Shown here piece by piece: positions 10,024 to 20,682 of a stretch of 22,609 bases of DNA. The stretch is from positions 1 through 22,609 of the IMG/VR virus record IMGVR_UViG_3300037189_029083; one strand, written 5' to 3'. Below the pieces are notes generated by a model, which saw only the letters and a program-made list of their open reading frames with translations, had not been told where the DNA came from and made no database searches. Position numbers and translations under genes: made by a program. Every line of letters begins with the position of its first letter. Positions within the stretch are counted from its first letter, which is position 1. Source of the stretch: a virus.

Positions 10024-10440
10024 ATGGCTTCACTATCCCGACTAAAGCACAAGGTCATACAGACACCGAACCTAGCACTCAGCGCTACCTATGCAACTAC
10101 CAGAACTGTTCAAATACCACTGTATCAGGACGCGCCTGGTATCGTTGGTAATGATGCAAAGTGGAACGGTATTATCGAGTCAGTTGTTATCAACTACACC
10201 ACTGCTACTGGTATCGCTTCTATCCTGAGCTTCCTATCCAGAGATGCTAATGGTGATGCTGGTCTTACTCAATCGACTACTACAAACGTCGTTACTGGAA
10301 CTACGACAGCTACATCTGGCTGTATTAGACTGAACTATGACCTCACACTTGCACTGAACCAGATCAATCTGTGGCTCTTCCTAAGGACGAACGCAGCAAC
10401 TTGCATTGTCACATCAGTAGAAGTAACTTGGCGTGAATAA
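10024..10440 (+). CDS. Beta-rich virion protein, third of three tandem genes
   Basis: This 138-residue protein has an ATG start and GGAG shortly upstream, within the stop of its paralogue. It is paralogous to the gene at 9609 over its whole length, with shared blocks INYTTATG-, SRDANGD, TTATSG and the C-terminal LRTNAAT...TWRE. The N-terminal 20 residues (MASLSRLKHKVIQTPNLALS) are more basic than those of the sister protein, which may reflect a different attachment surface. The final A of its TAA is the first base of the next ATG. Side-by-side diverged copies suggest hetero-oligomeric decoration or receptor-variation parts, but function is not shown. Confidence 0.7.
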   Translation: MASLSRLKHKVIQTPNLALSATYATTRTVQIPLYQDAPGIVGNDAKWNGIIESVVINYTTATGIASILSFLSRDANGDAGLTQSTTTNVVTGTTTATSGCIRLNYDLTLALNQINLWLFLRTNAATCIVTSVEVTWRE

Positions 10441-11240
10441 TGTCTAAGCCCTATGTTCAGCCTAAGCTCAAGCAGACTTACAACAATGATAAGAAGTCTC
10501 GTGAGCAGACAACACAGGACTTAGACCTATTCACCAATACTTTGAGAGGTATCGTCCCCGGAAGCGGTGGCGGCACGACTAATTTCCTGAGGGCTGACGG
10601 CTCTTGGGCAGCACCGCCAGGAGGCGGAGGATTACCACCAGATGGCACATACGCAGATATTCAAGTCACAGGACTTGGGACAAGTTGGACTCTCGTCTCT
10701 CCGGTTAATACAACCAGGCTCGCAACAGGCACAGCCTCAACGACAACCTGGCTTCGTGGAGATTCAACCTGGTCAGCTCTCCCTGGTTTCACGACAACAG
10801 ACGCAGGAACAGTCCCACCTTCAGGTGGTGGCACCACCAATTTCCTTCGAGCTGACGGCAGCTGGACTATCCCAGCAAACTTCACATCAGTCGCTCCAGG
10901 CTTCACACCAGCATCAGGTGGAGGAACCTCTAACTTCCTCAGAGCAGACGGAACTTGGGCAGCACCTGGAGGCGGTGGAGCTGTCACAAGACTGACGCTG
11001 AGTGCTCCATCTAACTCTGGAACTGAGTGGAGCTCTACAGTCTCTGTTGCAGGAGCGACAGCATCTTCTAAAGTTTCCTCTGCATTGGTCCTCAACTCTT
11101 CGCTGGACCAGAACGGATACGATGAGCTACAACATATGAATGTGTGGGCAGTTCCAGCTTCAGGTCAGATTACTTTCACACTCACTCATAGACTCGGTCG
11201 ATTCACCGGTCCCTTCTATGTCGATTACTCTTTAAGCTAA
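10440..11240 (+). CDS. Tail/fibre protein with repeated 'NFLRADGSW' elements
   Basis: This 266-residue protein overlaps the preceding stop by one base. After a polar, probably helical N-terminus (1-35) come four copies of a repeat typical of phage tail-fibre and receptor-binding proteins: GGTTNFLRADGSWAAP (about 43-59), TASTTTWLRGDSTWSALP (98-115), GGTTNFLRADGSWTIP (129-145) and GGTSNFLRADGTWAAP (160-176). Gly-rich linkers separate them. The last 85 residues are a distinct beta-rich domain ending TFTLTHRLGRFTGPFYVDYSLS. The repeat family is established knowledge; the receptor role here is an inference. It is short for a full fibre and may be an adaptor or an accessory fibre. Confidence 0.8.
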   Translation: MSKPYVQPKLKQTYNNDKKSREQTTQDLDLFTNTLRGIVPGSGGGTTNFLRADGSWAAPPGGGGLPPDGTYADIQVTGLGTSWTLVSPVNTTRLATGTASTTTWLRGDSTWSALPGFTTTDAGTVPPSGGGTTNFLRADGSWTIPANFTSVAPGFTPASGGGTSNFLRADGTWAAPGGGGAVTRLTLSAPSNSGTEWSSTVSVAGATASSKVSSALVLNSSLDQNGYDELQHMNVWAVPASGQITFTLTHRLGRFTGPFYVDYSLS

Positions 11241-12750: not shown

Positions 12751-12795
12751 ATGTTCGTCTATGACGTTGAACTTATACTAGCTGGTTCTCTATAA

Positions 12796-13379
12796 ACAAA
12801 TCGGGAGGATAAGTTACCTTATCCCCCCGACCGAGCCATCATCTTTCCGCGGCTCTTTCTAAACAAACTCTATTCGAAGTAAGGTTGGTGATATGCGATG
12901 TCCTTAATAGAGTTTGCTCAGACTGAACGATTACGTTCTTATATCTAAATAGTATCCTCAGCAGCAGAGTGTTTAAATTATTTTATGCTGTTTCTGGAGA
13001 CAGAAGGGCTTTAGCCCTGTATCAGCTTCTTTGCTCGAGTATATTTCGCAGTTGGTGACCTCAAAGTTTTTGGCGTCTTCGACCAACCACTTGTTGCCAG
13101 CCTTATTCGCTTCCTGTTGCAGGCGTTGCTTAACGTTTCTGCAGGGCTACTTACGAATAAACCTGGAGGAGAATAGAGCCTCCCTTTCGAGACTTACTGG
13201 ATAGCTAACATCGAAGTTAGATTTAGGCTCGTGTCCTTACTATGTCAGCTTCAAGACATAATAAAGTATCAATCACCATCTCAGCCGGAATCACACCGTG
13301 CAGTCTCTCTATCAACCATTACTCTGCTGCAATCAAGGCAGCTATGTTCTTACATATCTAATTATATGGTCCAGCAACT
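12796..13379 (+). ncRNA. 584-base gene-free region rich in inverted repeats; candidate structured RNA (strand uncertain)
   Basis: No convincing gene is visible on either strand. Inverted repeats are dense. There is a 13-bp hairpin (12801-12830), GAGCC/GGCTC (12833-12837 with 12851-12855), a perfect 10-bp AAACTCTATT/AATAGAGTTT (12865-12874 with 12906-12915) and GAACG-ATTA-CGTTC (12925-12938). Further ones are CAGCA/TGCTG (12962-12966 with 12986-12990), AGGGC-TTTA-GCCCT (13005-13018), GGAGG/CCTCC (13165-13183), CTAAC/GTTAG (13205-13220) and GCTGC/GCAGC (13326-13342). The loop sequence GGTTGGT (12883-12889) can pair with ACCAACC (13082-13088), a possible long-range contact. The plus strand is favoured because the region follows plus-strand late genes. 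Large phage RNAs such as GOLLD and ROOL are of comparable size, but I did not recognise their sequence here. Confidence 0.4.
12801..12830 (+). terminator. Strong hairpin after the late operon (terminator or RNA-processing site)
   Basis: TCGGGAGGATAAG and CTTATCCCCCCGA form a 13-bp stem with one A-C mismatch and a TTAC loop, 50 bases after the last gene of the late block. No U-run follows (CCGAGCCATC), so it is not a standard Rho-independent terminator. It may stop a phage polymerase, protect the 3' end of the late message, or be the first stem of the structured region. Confidence 0.5.
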
Positions 13380-13850
13380 TCAGTAAAACTCAAGTGAAAT
13401 TTTCTTGATAAAACCTGCATCTTCTACTTCCTGCCACTTCATTGTAGTGCAGATAGCATTGTGGCGATTGAAAGTGCGGCGGCCTTTCAGAAATCTCTTC
13501 AAGTCAGAAGAGCGATAGAGATAGCAAGCCCGCTCCCAGATGTTAATGAAGGCAACAACATCAGCATTGCCGCTCATCCAACCTATAGGTCTTCCAGCCT
13601 TAGTGGTAAGCTCAACACAGACAGTCTCATAGGCCCGCTTGTTCTGCCAGTCCCAACCGTCGTTAGACTTCACCTCTATCTGCAGGCCCTTATACTTCAT
13701 ATCAAAGCCCATATAGTAGTTGTCTGGCTTCTGGCTAATCCACTCAGTTCGCTCATCGCTCTCGCGCAGCTTATTATAGAGTTTGCCTTCCCACAGCTTG
13801 CCCGTATCCAAAGACTTCATCCCTTCCTTAGTATGCCAGTCGCTTATCAT
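13380..13850 (-). CDS. PD-(D/E)XK-type nuclease (endonuclease I / junction resolvase-like)
   Basis: This 156-residue protein is on the minus strand. ATG at 13848-13850 is chosen for the very good GAGGTGAT ribosome site just upstream. The core FDMKYKGLQIEVKSND gives Asp50, Glu59 and Lys61, the D-(x)8-ExK signature of PD-(D/E)XK nucleases, with Glu21 in the preceding helix (WEGKLYNKL). Length and spacing resemble T7 endonuclease I (149 residues; Glu20, Asp55, Glu65, Lys67), which resolves branched DNA before packaging. The tail (SGNADVVAFINIWERACYLYRSSDLKRFL) has the usual strand-helix pattern following such a core. The resolvase role is an inference; another phage nuclease is possible. It is a single gene, divergent from the small-gene operon at 13950. 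Confidence 0.65.
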   Translation of the reverse strand: MISDWHTKEGMKSLDTGKLWEGKLYNKLRESDERTEWISQKPDNYYMGFDMKYKGLQIEVKSNDGWDWQNKRAYETVCVELTTKAGRPIGWMSGNADVVAFINIWERACYLYRSSDLKRFLKGRRTFNRHNAICTTMKWQEVEDAGFIKKISLEFY

Positions 13851-14978: not shown

Positions 14979-15362
14979 TCAAAGTATTTCAACAGCTCGT
15001 CCCCTATCTGCAGGCTCTATGGTGAGCTTGCCCCTGAAGACTGTTAGCCTCCTCAGTGACTGCCAACACGTTGTCTCTCCATCCAGCTCCACGAAGTAGC
15101 CACACACCTTCTTGCCGTCCAGCAGCATCTCCCTCCTCTGCGAGCGATTGCGTATGAGGAAGCATTCGATAGCATCCTCCTCCCATGAGAAGGCGTCCGC
15201 GATGACCGCGGCCGCTTCCTCCTCCTCTCCATCCGCTATGCTATTGGCCCACGTCCAGAGCCCATCCAAGTCCCACGACCATATGTCTGGACCGCGACAG
15301 CTCCTCACCACCATCTGGGGCAATGCCTCTCCCTCTATCCTGAGCAGCGTTCCCCTCTTCAT
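14979..15362 (-). CDS. 127-residue protein of the minus-strand island, unknown function
   Basis: The start is taken at ATG 15360-15362, not at an upstream ATG 13 codons earlier. It shares bases with the preceding stop (TGATG) and has GAGGTG just upstream. The product begins MKRGTLLRIEGEALPQMVV and contains an acidic run (DGEEEEAAAVIADAFSWEEDAIE, middle). The C-terminal half is more basic (RNRSQRREMLLDGKKVCGYFVELDGE). No family is recognised and no membrane segment is present. Overlap with the 195-residue gene means both are made from one message. Confidence 0.6.
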   Translation of the reverse strand: MKRGTLLRIEGEALPQMVVRSCRGPDIWSWDLDGLWTWANSIADGEEEEAAAVIADAFSWEEDAIECFLIRNRSQRREMLLDGKKVCGYFVELDGETTCWQSLRRLTVFRGKLTIEPADRGRAVEIL

Positions 15363-15949
15363 CACAGCACCTCGCTGATTGCAGAGCGCTGCTCTTCCCA
15401 CTTCCTATCCACATAGACAGAGAAGTATTGGGAAGTCTCGACATCATCGAGCCATCCAGACGGGAATAGCACTTCATTGTCCCGCTCGAATAGAAGGCAA
15501 GTAGTCTCCTTTCCCCCCTTCATATCCAGCAATCGCAGAAGAACAGGACTGTGGTCTCCCGTTACATTGCATCCCCAGTCACTCCAATCCACAGAGATTT
15601 CGTCCTCGTCCCAGTCATAGTCGAACTGCTGAGCGATTGCCGCTTCCATATCAATGCCATCCGGTCCCAAGCGTTCGTGTAGTTCCTGCCAATCCTCCTC
15701 CTCCAGCAAGCGCTCGAACATCTTGGCTCGCTTCCAGTGAAGACCGTCCTCCTTCAGTCCTTCAATAACATCCCTGAAGACATAGCTCCAATTGACTGGA
15801 CAGCTCCATCCAGCGTCGAGATACTCCTGCAGGATTTTACCACCAACATAGTCCCTATCGCACTCATAGAGCTCGACCTTCTTATCGGCATCCAGGACCA
15901 TCCACTGCACATCATCAACAACAATAACATTACCGGCTTCGATAGACAT
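15362..15949 (-). CDS. 195-residue highly acidic protein, paralogue of the 16080-16589 gene
   Basis: The start is set at ATG 15947-15949 because the product then begins MSIEAGNVIVVDD, like its paralogue (MSIEVGSLFVF), and GGAGAGATGCG lies just upstream; an upstream in-frame ATG has no such support. The two proteins share a WxxxVNW-Y(V/F)F block, an EEEDWQELHERLGPDGI / AEKEWDKLEHIIPQQGI block, and a (L/I)FPS...DD ending. About 46 Asp/Glu against 18 Lys/Arg give a net charge near -28, with many Trp. Strongly acidic small phage proteins often bind host DNA-binding proteins or mimic DNA; that is only a possibility here. It has its own promoter-like element and leader hairpin. Confidence 0.65.
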   Translation of the reverse strand: MSIEAGNVIVVDDVQWMVLDADKKVELYECDRDYVGGKILQEYLDAGWSCPVNWSYVFRDVIEGLKEDGLHWKRAKMFERLLEEEDWQELHERLGPDGIDMEAAIAQQFDYDWDEDEISVDWSDWGCNVTGDHSPVLLRLLDMKGGKETTCLLFERDNEVLFPSGWLDDVETSQYFSVYVDRKWEEQRSAISEVL

Positions 15950-15965
15950 CGCATCTCTCCTGTTA

Positions 15966-16000
15966 GTGGGAGTATCACCGTCCCACATAGATAAATATTA
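15966..16000 (-). promoter_or_regulatory. Promoter-like element and leader hairpin with GGTGATA loop
   Basis: On the minus strand TAATATTTATCTATGTGGGA (16000-15981) leads into the hairpin GTGGGA-CGGTGATAC-TCCCAC (15986-15966), then AACAGGAGAG and the start at 15949. The parallel leader at 16608-16645 has the same CTATGTGG junction, arm plan and GGTGATA in the loop, which makes chance unlikely. Confidence 0.5.
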
Positions 16001-16014
16001 CTCTACTTCGTCAA

Positions 16015-16072
16015 GTGTTCAACACGCCTAAACTTGTAACGGGATTGTAACAAAGCGCGAACGAACGCGAAC
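16015..16072. repeat. Short repeats and palindrome between the two paralogous genes
   Basis: The interval contains the 11-bp palindrome GTGTTCAACAC (16015-16025), two TTGTAAC copies 11 bp apart (16034, 16045) and two GCGAAC copies 10 bp apart (16057, 16067). All are in one gap between minus-strand genes. Clustered, helically spaced short repeats suggest protein binding, but each is short. Confidence 0.35.
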
Positions 16073-16079
16073 AACCTAA

Positions 16080-16589
16080 TCAACAAATCACTGCAAATCT
16101 ATCCTCTTCGTCGAAGTAATCGTCATCACTCCCATCAAACCTCTTGTCCATTAGTCCATCGCAAGAGGGAAAGATAATCCACTCATCTTCAACTCCATAC
16201 CGATAATAAGTCTTTGGCCTATCCTCAAAGTGGTAAAAACCTAAATATTCTTGTAGAACTTCACTAATCAAATCCTCTCGCGAGAATATTCCTTGTTGTG
16301 GAATAATATGCTCGAGCTTATCCCATTCCTTCTCTGCGCAGAGATTGCTAAACTGTTGAAGTTCTTCTTCACACCAGTTCTTTCGATAGCTATCGATTAT
16401 GTAGTTGAAATACCTATTCCAATCAACAAAAGTTGGCCAACGCGAGGTAAGCTTACCAATAATCTCTTCTTTCAAATACCTAAGAAGAATATCACCTTCG
16501 TCAAGAACTCGGATTGAACTCTCGTTCAAACTCTGGACAATGAACTTCTCACCACGAAATACAAATAGACTACCAACCTCAATGGACAT
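16080..16589 (-). CDS. 169-residue acidic protein, paralogue of the 195-residue gene
   Basis: ATG at 16587-16589 on the minus strand follows AAGGAGTGAGCG. The product begins MSIEVGSLFVFRGEKFIVQSL and shares its plan with the 195-residue neighbour: a beta-rich N-terminus, a WPTFVDWNRYFNYII block, a helical EKEWDKLEHI block and an IIFPSCDG...DDDYFDEEDRF acidic ending. It lacks roughly 25 residues of the central acidic loop of the paralogue. No catalytic motif or membrane segment is seen. It is the first gene of the minus-strand island and is separated from its paralogue by a gap with repeats and a second promoter-like element, so the unit appears to have been duplicated together with its control region. 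Confidence 0.65.
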   Translation of the reverse strand: MSIEVGSLFVFRGEKFIVQSLNESSIRVLDEGDILLRYLKEEIIGKLTSRWPTFVDWNRYFNYIIDSYRKNWCEEELQQFSNLCAEKEWDKLEHIIPQQGIFSREDLISEVLQEYLGFYHFEDRPKTYYRYGVEDEWIIFPSCDGLMDKRFDGSDDDYFDEEDRFAVIC

Positions 16590-16607
16590 CGCTCACTCCT
16601 TGTTTGC

Positions 16608-16645
16608 GTGGATGTTATCACCTCATCCACATAGATTAATTATCT
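16608..16645 (-). promoter_or_regulatory. Promoter-like element and leader hairpin of the first island gene
   Basis: On the minus strand AGATAATTAATCTATGTGG (16645-16627) leads into a perfect 7-bp hairpin GTGGATG-AGGTGATAA-CATCCAC (16630-16608), then CAAGGAGTGAGCG and ATG at 16589. The loop GAGGTGATA is itself an extended match to the anti-ribosome-site sequence, although no start codon follows it closely. Confidence 0.5.
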
Positions 16646-16749
16646 TCTTCCAGCACAAAATGTTTAACTTGCTCAAAATATTTTTCATTCAAAACAAAAT
16701 GAATATTCAATCGCGATTGAAAACTCAGAGTAAATTTAGAATTTGCTTT
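16646..16749. other. AT-rich stretch containing a 16-bp perfect palindrome
   Basis: This gene-free stretch is clearly AT-rich (runs such as AAAATATTTTTC and AAAACAAAATGAATATTC) and adjoins the phased repeats. At 16706-16721 it holds TTCAATCGCGATTGAA, a perfect palindrome and a plausible dimeric-protein site. An AT-rich unwinding region beside iteron-like repeats is a usual origin layout. Confidence 0.5.
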
Positions 16750-16815
16750 GTGACAATTGCGTGAAATGTTTGTGACATTTGTGTGACAACTGTGTGACAA
16801 TCTGGTGACAACGTG
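16750..16815. repeat. Six tandem 11-bp repeats, consensus GTGACAAYTGT
   Basis: Units start at 16750, 16761, 16772, 16783, 16794 and 16805, each exactly 11 bp apart: GTGACAATTGC, GTGAAATGTTT, GTGACATTTGT, GTGACAACTGT, GTGACAATCTG, GTGACAACGTG. GTGACA is kept in five of six. One repeat per helical turn would present every copy on the same DNA face. The array lies in a gene-free region about 450 bp upstream of the TerS candidate. Origin iterons, a TerS-binding packaging site and a regulator array all fit. Confidence 0.85.
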
Positions 16816-16838
16816 GGACGGGATGGGCTGGGGCTGGG
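16815..16838 (+). other. Canonical G-quadruplex motif
   Basis: G-runs at 16815-16817, 16820-16822, 16825-16827, 16830-16833 and 16836-16838 are each separated by two bases (AC, AT, CT, CT): GGG-N2 repeated with five runs. This satisfies the strict G3N1-7 quadruplex rule with very short loops. It begins on the last base of the phased repeat array. Confidence 0.8.
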
Positions 16839-16962
16839 CTAGTGTGTAGAGTAAATTAAATATTTACCTAGGCCGTGGGCCATAGGAATTATAAAATTTT
16901 CTATTAGTGGAAAGCCGCTTTTCAAATCGAGCTCTAATTCCTAAACTTTTACTCCCCAGCCC
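16825..16962. repeat. Nested inverted repeats in the leader of the packaging operon
   Basis: GGGCTGGGG (16825-16833) is the exact reverse complement of CCCCAGCCC (16954-16962), and TAGGAATTA (16883-16891) of TAATTCCTA (16935-16943). Inside lie GTAAAT-5-ATTTAC (16851-16867) and CCTAGGCC-GTG-GGCCATAGG (16867-16886, one bulged A). In RNA or as a cruciform this gives an ordered multi-stem fold. The outer left arm is part of the G-quadruplex tract. Confidence 0.6.
16859..16870 (+). promoter_or_regulatory. Promoter-like AATATTTACCTA ahead of the packaging genes
   Basis: AATATTTACCTA resembles AATATTTATCTA of the 15981-16000 element and points toward the packaging genes. A separate AT-rich TATAAAATTTTC lies at 16890-16901 and could be a sigma-70 type -10. 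The message leader would be about 100 bases. Confidence 0.35.
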
Positions 16963-16989
16963 TAATACTTATAGAACACAAGGAACAAG

Positions 16990-17256
16990 ATGCAACAGCC
17001 ACACAACACCGAACCAATCAAGCTAGCCGCGGGCGACAGAATAGAGATCTGCGGATCTCCAATAAACGCGTGTCTCTTCACAGTCCTGGAAGCCCTACCT
17101 TACACAACACATCCAGGACCTATAACAAAGAGCAAGCTATTAGTTAGTGGAAAGGGGGGAACCGGTTGGATAGATATAGAGCGTCGCGGAAACCGCGCCG
17201 CCTGGACAACCTGGGGAAGCGAAATCAAGGGGCCTTACGGTCCATTAGACATATAG
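16990..17256 (+). CDS. 88-residue protein, unknown, first gene of the packaging operon
   Basis: ATG at 16990 is preceded by AAGGAAC. The product, starting MQQPHNTEPIKLAAGDRIEI, shows a beta-rich pattern (AAGDRIEICGSPINACLFTVLEAL ... SKLLVSGKGGTGWIDIERRGNRAAWTTWG) with 'aGD.i.i' at the start, again reminiscent of small SH3-like barrels. The GKGGTG run is glycine-rich but not a nucleotide-binding loop in context. No family is recognised. It is separated by 9 bases from the TerS candidate. Confidence 0.6.
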   Translation: MQQPHNTEPIKLAAGDRIEICGSPINACLFTVLEALPYTTHPGPITKSKLLVSGKGGTGWIDIERRGNRAAWTTWGSEIKGPYGPLDI

Positions 17257-17265
17257 GGGGATGTG

Positions 17266-17529
17266 ATGGAAAAGAAGTATTCAAAAGCTATTGCTGCCTG
17301 CAACAAGCGTGACTCGCTGGAACTGAGCTGGGAGCTTATCCGTGTTTGCCTCCAGGACCTGGACAACGGCAATCCCCCAGAGCTGGGCAAGACTGTTGTT
17401 ATCGAACTGGTAAAGACCGTCTCGGCCGCGGAGCGGCAAGCAGGTATGCCAGGCAGCAAGGTGGATCAGGTTGCTGCTGAGCCTCCAGCCAAGGATATGG
17501 ACCGCATCAAGGACTGGTTGAAGGGCTAA
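17266..17529 (+). CDS. Terminase small subunit candidate
   Basis: ATG at 17266 is preferred over the adjacent GTG at 17263; GGGGG lies 5-9 bases upstream of either. The 87-residue product is helical, MEKKYSKAIAACNKRDSLELSWELIRVCLQDL with a later SAAERQAGMPG and a C-terminal acidic-basic helix DMDRIKDWLKG. Its stop shares a base with the ATG of the large terminase. Direct coupling to TerL, helical content and a length near that of T7 gp18 (89 residues) make a DNA-recognition small subunit the best guess, but no helix-turn-helix can be proved by eye. If so, the phased GTGACA array upstream is a candidate binding site. Confidence 0.45.
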   Translation: MEKKYSKAIAACNKRDSLELSWELIRVCLQDLDNGNPPELGKTVVIELVKTVSAAERQAGMPGSKVDQVAAEPPAKDMDRIKDWLKG

Positions 17530-19025
17530 TGGCGAGACCACGCAATCCACCAAAGCTGGAAGAGGTATTAAAGGATCCTGTCCTATTCATATCTCGCCTC
17601 TCCATCGTGGATAAGAAGGGCAAGCTGGTAAAGATGAAGCCCCAGGGGGAGCAGATCTCTATCATCCAAGCCTTGCATAGCGGCGATGACGTCCTCATCC
17701 TCAAGCCCCGTCAGATCGGTAGCACCACAGCAGTGGCCGCCTACTTCTTCTGGAAGTGGTATGTGAGCGATAGCCCCACAACACACGTTATCCTCTCCCA
17801 TAAGATGTCGTCATCCCAGCATATCTTCAAGATGTTCAAGCGCTTCTGGCAGGGGCTTCCCGGGGACTTGCAACGCGAGTTGTCTGTTACTTCTAACTCG
17901 ACAATGACCTTAAAGGACACTGGCGCCACGCTGCAGGCACACACCTCAGCGGGCGACGGTGGCCTACGTTCCTTCTCAGCCTCCTCCATCCACATCTCAG
18001 AGTTTGCCTTCACGGACAACGCCGATGAGTTGAAGGCCACCGCTGTCGCTGCCCTTAACGGCGGCCAGCTCTGCATCGAGTCCACAGCCAACTACTGGGG
18101 CGATGCCCTGCACAATGAGATCCAGCTGTGGGAAGCTGATATGGTGGAGTGGCGCTTTCTCTTCTTCCCCTGGACTGAGCACGAGGGCTACAGGTTGGAA
18201 GCGCCGTGGGACTGGGAACAAGATCCTGAAAGTCAGCTTACGAGAGAACAACAATACTGGATGGCGAAGCAAGTGGGCAAGCTAGGCTGGACCAAGTTCC
18301 GCCGAGAGTATCCCCTTACAGTTGAAGATGCCTATGCCCAGACCGACGGCGCCTGGATTCCAGCATCACTCTTCGAAGACTTCAACGTTATCAAGGGGGA
18401 ACCAGATGGCATCGTCTTTGCAAAGCTGGACTACAACGACAAGTATGCTATCGGCGTTGACGTGGGCGCTGGCACCGGCGGAGACTTCTCAGCCCTGGTC
18501 GTAATGTCAGCCCTAACAGGCGACATCGTAGAGATACGCCGCGCCAACGATCTAACACCAACAGAGTGGGCTGATGTTGTGGCCGATGCCAGCAGAAAGT
18601 GGCGTGATGCAAAGGTCCTTGTCGAATCTAACGGCACCTGGGGCGGTGTTGTTCTAACCGAGCTGCGTCATATGCGCATCCCCTTGTGGAAGACCGGTGA
18701 GGGCAAGGACTGGATCACCAACGCCTCCAACAAGCCTATTATGCTGGAGAGCATAAAGGATCGACTCCTGAAGGGGCAACTCAGAAATCTAGACCACTGG
18801 ACAATGAGCGAACTGCGCTCCTTCAAGGTAAACGACCGCGGCGAACCGTTCTGCCCACGCAACGGCATCCATCACGGTGACACTGTTATGGCACTTGCCT
18901 GCTGCATCCAGTGTCTTGAGTCTGTGGCACCGCCAACGCAAGCCTACCTTCCAGACTGGTTAAAGCTGCGTCGTCTACAAAGAGCGCAAAATTCTGGAAA
19001 TATGGAAGCACTTCGTCGTTATTAG
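17529..19025 (+). CDS. terL: Terminase large subunit (packaging ATPase and nuclease)
   Basis: This 498-residue protein starts one base inside the preceding stop. The ATPase half has a Walker A-type loop PRQIGSTT (60-67, Ser where classical loops have Lys), a Walker B-like strand ending IHISEFAF with Glu158, and the coupling motif LCIESTAN (181-188). The nuclease half has GVDVGAGTGGDFSALVV (Asp311, Asp319), VESNGT (Glu367) and HGDTVMALACC (Asp451), the acidic triad of RNase H-like TerL nucleases. It pumps DNA into the prohead through the portal and cuts it at the end of packaging. The Lys-less loop occurs in other TerL lineages, so activity is expected. Portal follows after 28 bases. Confidence 0.95.
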   Translation: MARPRNPPKLEEVLKDPVLFISRLSIVDKKGKLVKMKPQGEQISIIQALHSGDDVLILKPRQIGSTTAVAAYFFWKWYVSDSPTTHVILSHKMSSSQHIFKMFKRFWQGLPGDLQRELSVTSNSTMTLKDTGATLQAHTSAGDGGLRSFSASSIHISEFAFTDNADELKATAVAALNGGQLCIESTANYWGDALHNEIQLWEADMVEWRFLFFPWTEHEGYRLEAPWDWEQDPESQLTREQQYWMAKQVGKLGWTKFRREYPLTVEDAYAQTDGAWIPASLFEDFNVIKGEPDGIVFAKLDYNDKYAIGVDVGAGTGGDFSALVVMSALTGDIVEIRRANDLTPTEWADVVADASRKWRDAKVLVESNGTWGGVVLTELRHMRIPLWKTGEGKDWITNASNKPIMLESIKDRLLKGQLRNLDHWTMSELRSFKVNDRGEPFCPRNGIHHGDTVMALACCIQCLESVAPPTQAYLPDWLKLRRLQRAQNSGNMEALRRY

Positions 19026-19053: not shown

Positions 19054-20682
19054 ATGGCCAGAACAGAGAGAGACAGAATCAATTTCATCAGGGCTGCACA
19101 GCAGCAGCACACTGATTACTGGGATACGCTGCGTCCAGAGATGAAGCGCTATCGCAACGCCTACCTCACCAAGTTCTATTCCGACTCCGACTTTATCGAT
19201 GCCTCAGCCATCCGCGTTGAGACAGCCGATGCCTACGCCGCCATCGAGTCGGTGATGGGCTCACTCTTCACAAAGTATCCTGGTATGGAAGTTGCCCCAG
19301 ACATTCGCGGCAAGGGGGACATCGCCATCACGAAGGAGATAACGAATAACTGGTTGCGCAAGTGTCGCGACCAAATTGAAAACGCCGCCCGTATGGCTCT
19401 CATCTACACGCACTCCTTCCTCAAGCTCGCGCCTCGCGAGAGTAACAATATGCTAGATAAGATTGCTATGCGGGCGGTTCCACCTTGGCAGGTTATTCTA
19501 GACCGCGATGCCGCGGCCTGGGAGGACAGCAGGTTTATCGGTCACGTTTACTGGCTCTCAGTTGATGAGGCCAATCAGAAGTTTGGAACCAAGAAATGGC
19601 AGGGCACACCACAGAAGGATTACTTCACAGACTACGAAAGGAACACAGACAGAAGCTATCGCTCCAACGGTGATTCACCAGATCTACCTAACGAATACCT
19701 CTACATCGAGATCGTCGAGATGTATGACTTCCTCAATAACGAACTGCTATTCTGGAGTCACTGTTATAAGAATGGCGAAGAACTACTGTCTCGTGATGCT
19801 ATCCCAGTTCTTACCTATGATGGTCGCCCTATGTCCAACTTGGTTCCACTCTATTTCTCTCGCTCTCCAGATCGTCCGATGGAGGGCTACTCTGCAATGG
19901 CCAGAATCTACGACCAGTGTTTTGAGAAGAACATCCTCAGAACCTTCTGGGCCAATGCCGTTCGTCGCGACTCACGCCAGTATATCTACAAGGAAGGCGT
20001 GTTCGATGAGGAGGCGCTGGCCAAGATCACAGCCGGCGTTGACGGCGCAATGATTCCAGTCGACAACGACACCATCAGCGGCCTCATCGATCAGGTTCCA
20101 GTTACTCCAATCTCTTCGAACCACGCTGCCTACCTCAACTACGTTGAGCAGGATCTGAACAAAGGTTCGCTCATTGCCGGCTTTACTCGCGGTGAAGCAA
20201 GCAAGGCAACAGCAACAGAGGTAACCGCGCTCATGCAGTATACCGCCTCTGAGCTGGGCAAGATGGCCCGCGATAGAGACTCAGCAATGGAAGCAGCAAT
20301 CCTGCTCTATGTTCGTATGCTCATCCCCCTGCTGGACGATGGTGACGACTCTGTCATCGTTACCTCAGAGGGCGCCAAGGCACTCACACCATCCCGTATC
20401 GACGCCGACTGGAAGTTTTATGCAACCGACGGCGGTTCAACTCCAATGAACGACATCATCAAGAAGACTCCGCTCATCCAACTGTTCCCACTGCTTGCTC
20501 AGCTGGGCGTTCCAATGAACAAGGTTCGCGACGAGATTGTTCGCCTCTATAACCTGCCTCCTTCCTTTACTGAAGAGGCAACTGACCTTCCAGCCAATAT
20601 GGAAGTTCCTAATAACGTGGGCTCTGCCGCTGTTCCTGTTCAATCGCCGTCTGAGATCTCAGGCGCCATCGGTGGTAGCTGA
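19054..20682 (+). CDS. Portal protein (head-tail connector)
   Basis: This is a 542-residue protein with ATG at 19054 and AGGAAGG upstream. The N-terminal helical part (about 5-60, RDRINFIRAAQQQHTDYWDTLRPEMKRYRNAYL), the helix AYAAIESVMGSLFTKYPGMEV and the core with VPPWQVILDRDAAAWEDSRFIGHVYWLSVDEANQKFG are typical of podovirus-type portals, as are the Pro- and Arg-rich 'LYFSRSPDRPMEGYSAMARIYDQ' and the later helix 'GEASKATATEVTALMQYTASELGKMARDRDSAMEAAI'. It should form the dodecameric ring through which TerL drives DNA and to which the tail attaches. Length is normal for the family (T7 gp8 is 536). The next gene starts on its last base. Confidence 0.9.
   Translation: MARTERDRINFIRAAQQQHTDYWDTLRPEMKRYRNAYLTKFYSDSDFIDASAIRVETADAYAAIESVMGSLFTKYPGMEVAPDIRGKGDIAITKEITNNWLRKCRDQIENAARMALIYTHSFLKLAPRESNNMLDKIAMRAVPPWQVILDRDAAAWEDSRFIGHVYWLSVDEANQKFGTKKWQGTPQKDYFTDYERNTDRSYRSNGDSPDLPNEYLYIEIVEMYDFLNNELLFWSHCYKNGEELLSRDAIPVLTYDGRPMSNLVPLYFSRSPDRPMEGYSAMARIYDQCFEKNILRTFWANAVRRDSRQYIYKEGVFDEEALAKITAGVDGAMIPVDNDTISGLIDQVPVTPISSNHAAYLNYVEQDLNKGSLIAGFTRGEASKATATEVTALMQYTASELGKMARDRDSAMEAAILLYVRMLIPLLDDGDDSVIVTSEGAKALTPSRIDADWKFYATDGGSTPMNDIIKKTPLIQLFPLLAQLGVPMNKVRDEIVRLYNLPPSFTEEATDLPANMEVPNNVGSAAVPVQSPSEISGAIGGS

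Follow-up and report, generated by a model that had tools for sequence, protein, structure and literature searches.

Upstream of the packaging genes of an uncultured phage, a G-rich tract with five G-runs, GGGACGGGATGGGCTGGGGCTGGG (16815-16838, plus strand), directly adjoins an array of phased 11-bp repeats. The stretch analyzed, hereafter the window, is a linear virus record of 22,609 bp and represents a fragment. The tract is real and unlikely to have arisen by chance, with the caveat that the motif was picked from the whole window. A possible reading, and the one that we tentatively prefer, is that the region is the promoter or packaging-start (pac-like) control region of the packaging operon, with the G-tract as a lineage-specific component; the quadruplex as such probably arises as a by-product or forms facultatively.

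Results

A strict quadruplex motif at the edge of a phased repeat array

The gene-free divergent region spans 400 bp (16590-16989) between a leftward and a rightward ORF, and has a GC content of 38% versus 47% for the whole window. From left to right it contains a leftward promoter candidate, an AT-rich stretch (16640-16745) adjoining the repeats, a palindrome, the 11-bp units, the G-tract, AT-rich inverted repeats, and a C-tract (Table 1). The six units read TGTGACAATTG/CGTGAAATGTT/TGTGACATTTG/TGTGACAACTG/TGTGACAATCT/GGTGACAACGT, and the G-tract is in register with the unit that would come next. The first-pass annotation had placed the tract in a gene-free setting, abutting the phased repeats and upstream of the packaging genes, and in this it was right; the start of the tract, given there as the final base of the repeats, has to be corrected to the first base past the sixth unit. 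An alternative TRF reading with a 22-bp period extends to 16819, past the start of the tract. A sigma-70 promoter overlapping the repeats was considered and rejected, being at chance level.

The sequence of the tract is exactly as first described: five G-runs (3, 3, 3, 4, and 3) with 2-base loops throughout (AC, AT, CT, and CT), and hence a G-quadruplex motif by the sequence definition G3+N1-7 x4. Both strands of the 22.6 kb were scanned, and this is the sole strict G3+ quadruplex motif found; the contig's highest G4Hunter score (1.96) falls at the same place. Among dinucleotide-shuffled windows, 3% contained any G3+N1-7 motif and 0.7% one with loops of 1-2 nt, while five runs appeared in 0/300; shuffles of the intergenic region gave a quadruplex motif in 0/5000. 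The proposed five-run motif with exact 2-base spacing is thus borne out, beyond what shuffling produces.

Table 1. Coordinates of genes and sequence elements in and around the divergent region of the window.
Feature	Position	Strand	Basis or remark
Divergent small gene, function not assigned	16080-16589	-	ORF
Sigma-70-like promoter candidate, leftward gene	16639-16666	-	Number of such sites about that expected from shuffles
Palindrome TTCAATCGCGATTGAA, 16 bp, operator-like	16706-16721		Palindrome search; longest perfect palindrome of the window
Six 11-bp phased units, four with exact TGTGACA	16749-16814	+	Repeat search
G-rich tract (GGGNN)x5, strict quadruplex motif	16815-16838	+	Motif scan, shuffles, G4Hunter
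Candidate multibranched leader RNA closed by GGGCTGGGG/CCCCAGCCC stem	16825-16962	+	Fold prediction
CCCCAGCCC, possible 3' arm of leader stem	16954-16962	+	Perfect complement of 16825-16833
88-aa ORF, first gene of packaging operon	16990-17256	+	ORF; preceded by AAGGA ribosome-binding-like site
Putative small terminase (terS); stop overlaps TerL start	17263-17529	+	Synteny only; family kept in relatives
Terminase large subunit (TerL)	17529-19025	+	phrog_2, 1.3e-24
Portal protein	19054-20682	+	phrog_156; SU10_portal slightly below cut-off

Genes on either side of the region

No protein family matched the putative TerS. Its structural model (pLDDT 82.9) is an all-helical bundle, and a fold search with this model returned weak helical-bundle matches alone and no TerS match. 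On the other side, the two adjacent leftward genes at 15362-16589 start alike (MSIEAGN/MSIEVGS), are 27% identical over their length, and have similar upstream DNA (CACATAGAT..); going by these sequences, they are probably a duplication. Further left, the leftward protein encoded at 13380-13850 has an EVK core that is kept in 9 relatives and looks nuclease-like by eye, with no confident family match.

Relatives share the position of repeats, not the motif

Searches with TerL yielded 40 viral loci, 38 of them at 50-90% TerL identity and two distant (22-23%). A strict quadruplex motif near terS or TerL is absent in 37 other loci of TerL relatives, and the only one found among the relative loci (L038) lies on the minus strand, well downstream of TerL. 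The whole records of eight relatives contain scattered three-run matches and nothing more. Upstream of terS, the DNA of relatives with 50-67% TerL identity is entirely unlike that of the window and contains no quadruplex motif, and the contig of the one relative at 90% identity (L005) ends inside TerL. No relative emerged from viral scans with the 88-aa ORF, the putative TerS, the divergent gene, or a 19-mer from the leader, or from a search of GTDB genomes with the TerL alignment. Searches of phage and plasmid DNA with the intergenic region found no other public copy, and its comparison with all TerL relatives gave no convincing match (best E 0.007, in L023).

A terS-like gene could be placed in 20 loci, representing 18 lineages (L007 merged with L008, and L010 with L016), and the preceding 300 nt were scored for direct repeats against dinucleotide shuffles, scores of at least 15 being counted. 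Significant short direct repeats precede terS in 6/18 lineages (the window, L004, L027, L031, L010/L016, and L021) versus 1/255 random segments of the same contigs. The repeat units are lineage-specific, for example, TCACATA and GTGCCGCA in L004 and the G-rich TAGATGGGGATAGG in L031; those of L021 and L027 have a common ATAGG-type core. G-clusters on the sense strand before terS also tend to rank high for the contig that carries them (mean rank 0.22, leaving the window out), and both L031 and L008 have G-rich stretches ahead of terS. G-richness before terS as a clean conserved trait is weakened, however, as other homologous positions deviate too. What recurs in the relatives is the position of the repeats before terS, and not the quadruplex motif.

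In 24/33 relatives, the contig covers a shorter distance upstream of TerL than downstream, and four of the six longest relative contigs (L012, L019, L032, and L039) begin within ~1 kb upstream of TerL. The contig ends have no single end point in common. A bias of viral detection can explain both patterns; the starts near TerL could also reflect a physical end or a hypervariable region.

Slippage, leader RNA, and quadruplex formation as alternatives

A 9-nt segment inside the G-tract, GGGCTGGGG (16825-16833), is perfectly complementary to CCCCAGCCC, located 120 nt downstream, a pairing that the first-pass annotation had overlooked; in shuffled-flank trials, such a complement arose by chance in 0.5% of cases. 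This pairing bears on two of the alternatives to a control region, none of which is exclusive of it or of the others, so that the likelihoods we attach to them partly overlap.

The G-tract might simply be a neutral pentanucleotide simple-sequence tract, generated by replication slippage and devoid of function, which we regard as rather unlikely, though far from negligible. Its GGGCT/GGGNN tandem character, picked up by TRF as an 11-bp period with 90% match at 16820-16840, would be explained in this way, as would its lack of conservation in a phage group whose terS-upstream DNA turns over fast. On the other hand, slippage would not account for the register with the 11-bp array, and the exact complement would have to be a coincidence.

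It is also unlikely, to a slightly greater degree, that the tract serves mainly as the 5' arm of a structured leader RNA controlling the stability or translation of the packaging-operon mRNA, the quadruplex being incidental or a competitor of the stem. The modeled leader would be closed by the perfect, GC-rich 9-bp pairing, enclose hairpins formed by GTAAAT/ATTTAC and TAGGAATTA/TAATTCCTA, and stop 27 nt ahead of the start codon. The predicted fold has an energy of -50 kcal/mol and a z-score of -3.86 for ends that were picked after viewing the fold, but z falls to -2.35 for 16815-16975 and to -1.8 for 16800-17000, and fixed 140-nt tiles give -1.5 to -1.9, which is ordinary for the window. Moreover, even with a cut-off of E<=10 the covariance models of Rfam 15 gave no match to the region, the L008 leader shows no more structure than is usual, and no close homologue was found.

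A true G-quadruplex, formed in the non-template DNA or in RNA and tuning the packaging operon or priming replication by slowing the polymerase or by holding an R-loop, seems improbable to us. The five runs, the short loops, and the contig-wide G4Hunter maximum are what such a structure would call for, and a quadruplex-aware RNA fold places a quadruplex in runs 1-4 (16815-16832), at -55.7 versus -50.0 kcal/mol without it, with the fifth run and last part of the tract in a 6-bp stem. The gain varies from 1.7 to 5.7 kcal/mol with the flanks, being smaller (~2) with longer ones, and the energy terms for quadruplexes are rough. Against it, the relatives' packaging loci lack the strict motif, their whole records have scattered matches only, and the G-runs show no demonstrable conservation.

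TGTGACA arrays in other viruses

Triple TGTGACA arrays with 11-bp spacing, of which the window has a copy at 16771-16799, occur in 52 viral contigs (L042-L093; 43 distinct arrays), compared with 11 contigs (13 arrays) for the reversed 7-mer used as a control. These contigs have very different GC contents, and the spacers differ in most arrays. We rejected the array as a pointer to one named system, since the flanking genes (integrase, terminase, primase, and methylase) have no common function; the triple array may be a regulator or replication site in common use. That the repeats and the G-tract constitute a replication origin, with iterons, an AT-rich stretch, and a G-tract, is very unlikely: the AT-rich stretch beside the repeats and the many viral arrays, a few of them next to replication genes, would suit an origin, but the mixed flanking genes do not, the skew curve tracks gene orientation, and no initiator or replication gene is among the proteins identified in this fragment record (nine scanned with Pfam and eight with PHROGs).

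Discussion

A possible control region for the packaging operon

We tentatively favor a promoter or pac-like control region because the elements lie directly upstream of an operon with TerL and portal genes, because direct repeats are enriched before terS across the lineages, because the pac site of SPP1 has comparable repeats at the promoters of its small terminase gene, and, as a weak trend, because G-clusters before terS rank high in their own contigs. The 11-bp phasing of TGTGACA would allow one protein contact per helical turn on a single face of the DNA, the arrangement one would expect of a promoter regulator, or of a small terminase that forms a ring and wraps DNA at a pac-like site. 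The G-tract would be a lineage-specific element at the edge of this array and, upon rightward transcription, might act as a quadruplex or as the 5' arm of the leader-closing stem. Protein binding, a packaging or regulatory role, and transcription through the tract are all what we infer here. Several observations speak against a pac-like site: the 88-aa ORF intervenes between the G-tract and the putative terS, which is itself placed by synteny only and whose helical model has no telling match; the L010 repeat, one of the six cases, falls inside an ORF that is coding; the trend in G-clusters is blurred by deviations at other positions; and the contig passes unbroken through the region.

Comparison with known systems

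A close parallel is offered by the Bacillus phages SPP1 and SF6. According to the published account (PMC4737164), the SPP1 pac site comprises three sets of direct repeats across the promoters and the start of the small terminase gene, the boxA repeats of SPP1 are absent from SF6, and adjacent helix-turn-helix motifs in the terminase ring are spaced by roughly one turn of DNA, so that a model with wrapped DNA is feasible. The same account (PMC4737164) describes single DNA-binding domains of SF6 as having little sequence preference, so recognition of the repeats there would not have to depend on each base. By analogy, the phased, lineage-specific array upstream of terS fits the pattern of this system, or else that of a promoter-regulator array. 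As in SPP1 and SF6, short direct repeats in the window stand upstream of the putative small terminase gene, in what would be a promoter region, and are poorly conserved among relatives, and the near-one-turn spacing suits a wrapped ring. Unlike SPP1 and SF6, the window has an extra ORF between the repeats and the putative terS and a different terminase family, as well as a G-rich quadruplex motif, of which the available part of the SPP1/SF6 account (PMC4737164) makes no mention.

Two further comparisons concern regulation. Given that the units read TGTCACA on the other strand, they are Pho-box-like, although this is a resemblance only and no Pho gene was identified in the window; the boxes of OmpR/PhoB-type regulators are likewise 11-bp direct repeats. 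The tract resembles bacterial and viral promoter or leader G-quadruplexes in that a strict motif of four runs lies ahead of an operon on its sense strand; unlike them, it lacks conservation across relatives.

The G-tract belongs to a known type of motif, and the phage group that carries it is unstudied. If the region is a packaging-start site, it would show where the recognition site lies in a group of uncultured phages that is as yet undescribed and whose repeats upstream of terS vary with lineage; if not, the tract is one further G-rich tract in a promoter region. We consider it highly improbable that a quadruplex beside helically phased small-terminase sites acts as a structural mark, that is, a stalling or cut-site signal, with G-rich terS-upstream tracts turning over rapidly in the group (compare L031 and L008). 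Should this be true, a quadruplex as a packaging mark would, as far as we are aware, be new for tailed phages; searches of a partial set of open-access papers on quadruplexes together with phages or packaging turned up no report of one at a phage packaging site.

Other structured segments of the window

Between convergent gene blocks, ~630 nt (12751-13379) contain no convincing gene and are strongly structured, above all on the minus strand (-201 kcal/mol, z -5.2 from 20 shuffles), with no Rfam match; 12800-12930 resembles back-to-back terminator hairpins, and comparable two-strand structure follows the late genes of L018, L023, and L027. The segment 14464-14560 has a 22-bp repeat, GTTGTCCGGCGTCTTGTTAACG, in 3.5 copies and, after them, a terminator-like hairpin, GCGCCCC/GGGGCGC. 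The strongest fold z-score of the window (-7.6) belongs to 10401-10540 on the minus strand, which spans a gene junction.
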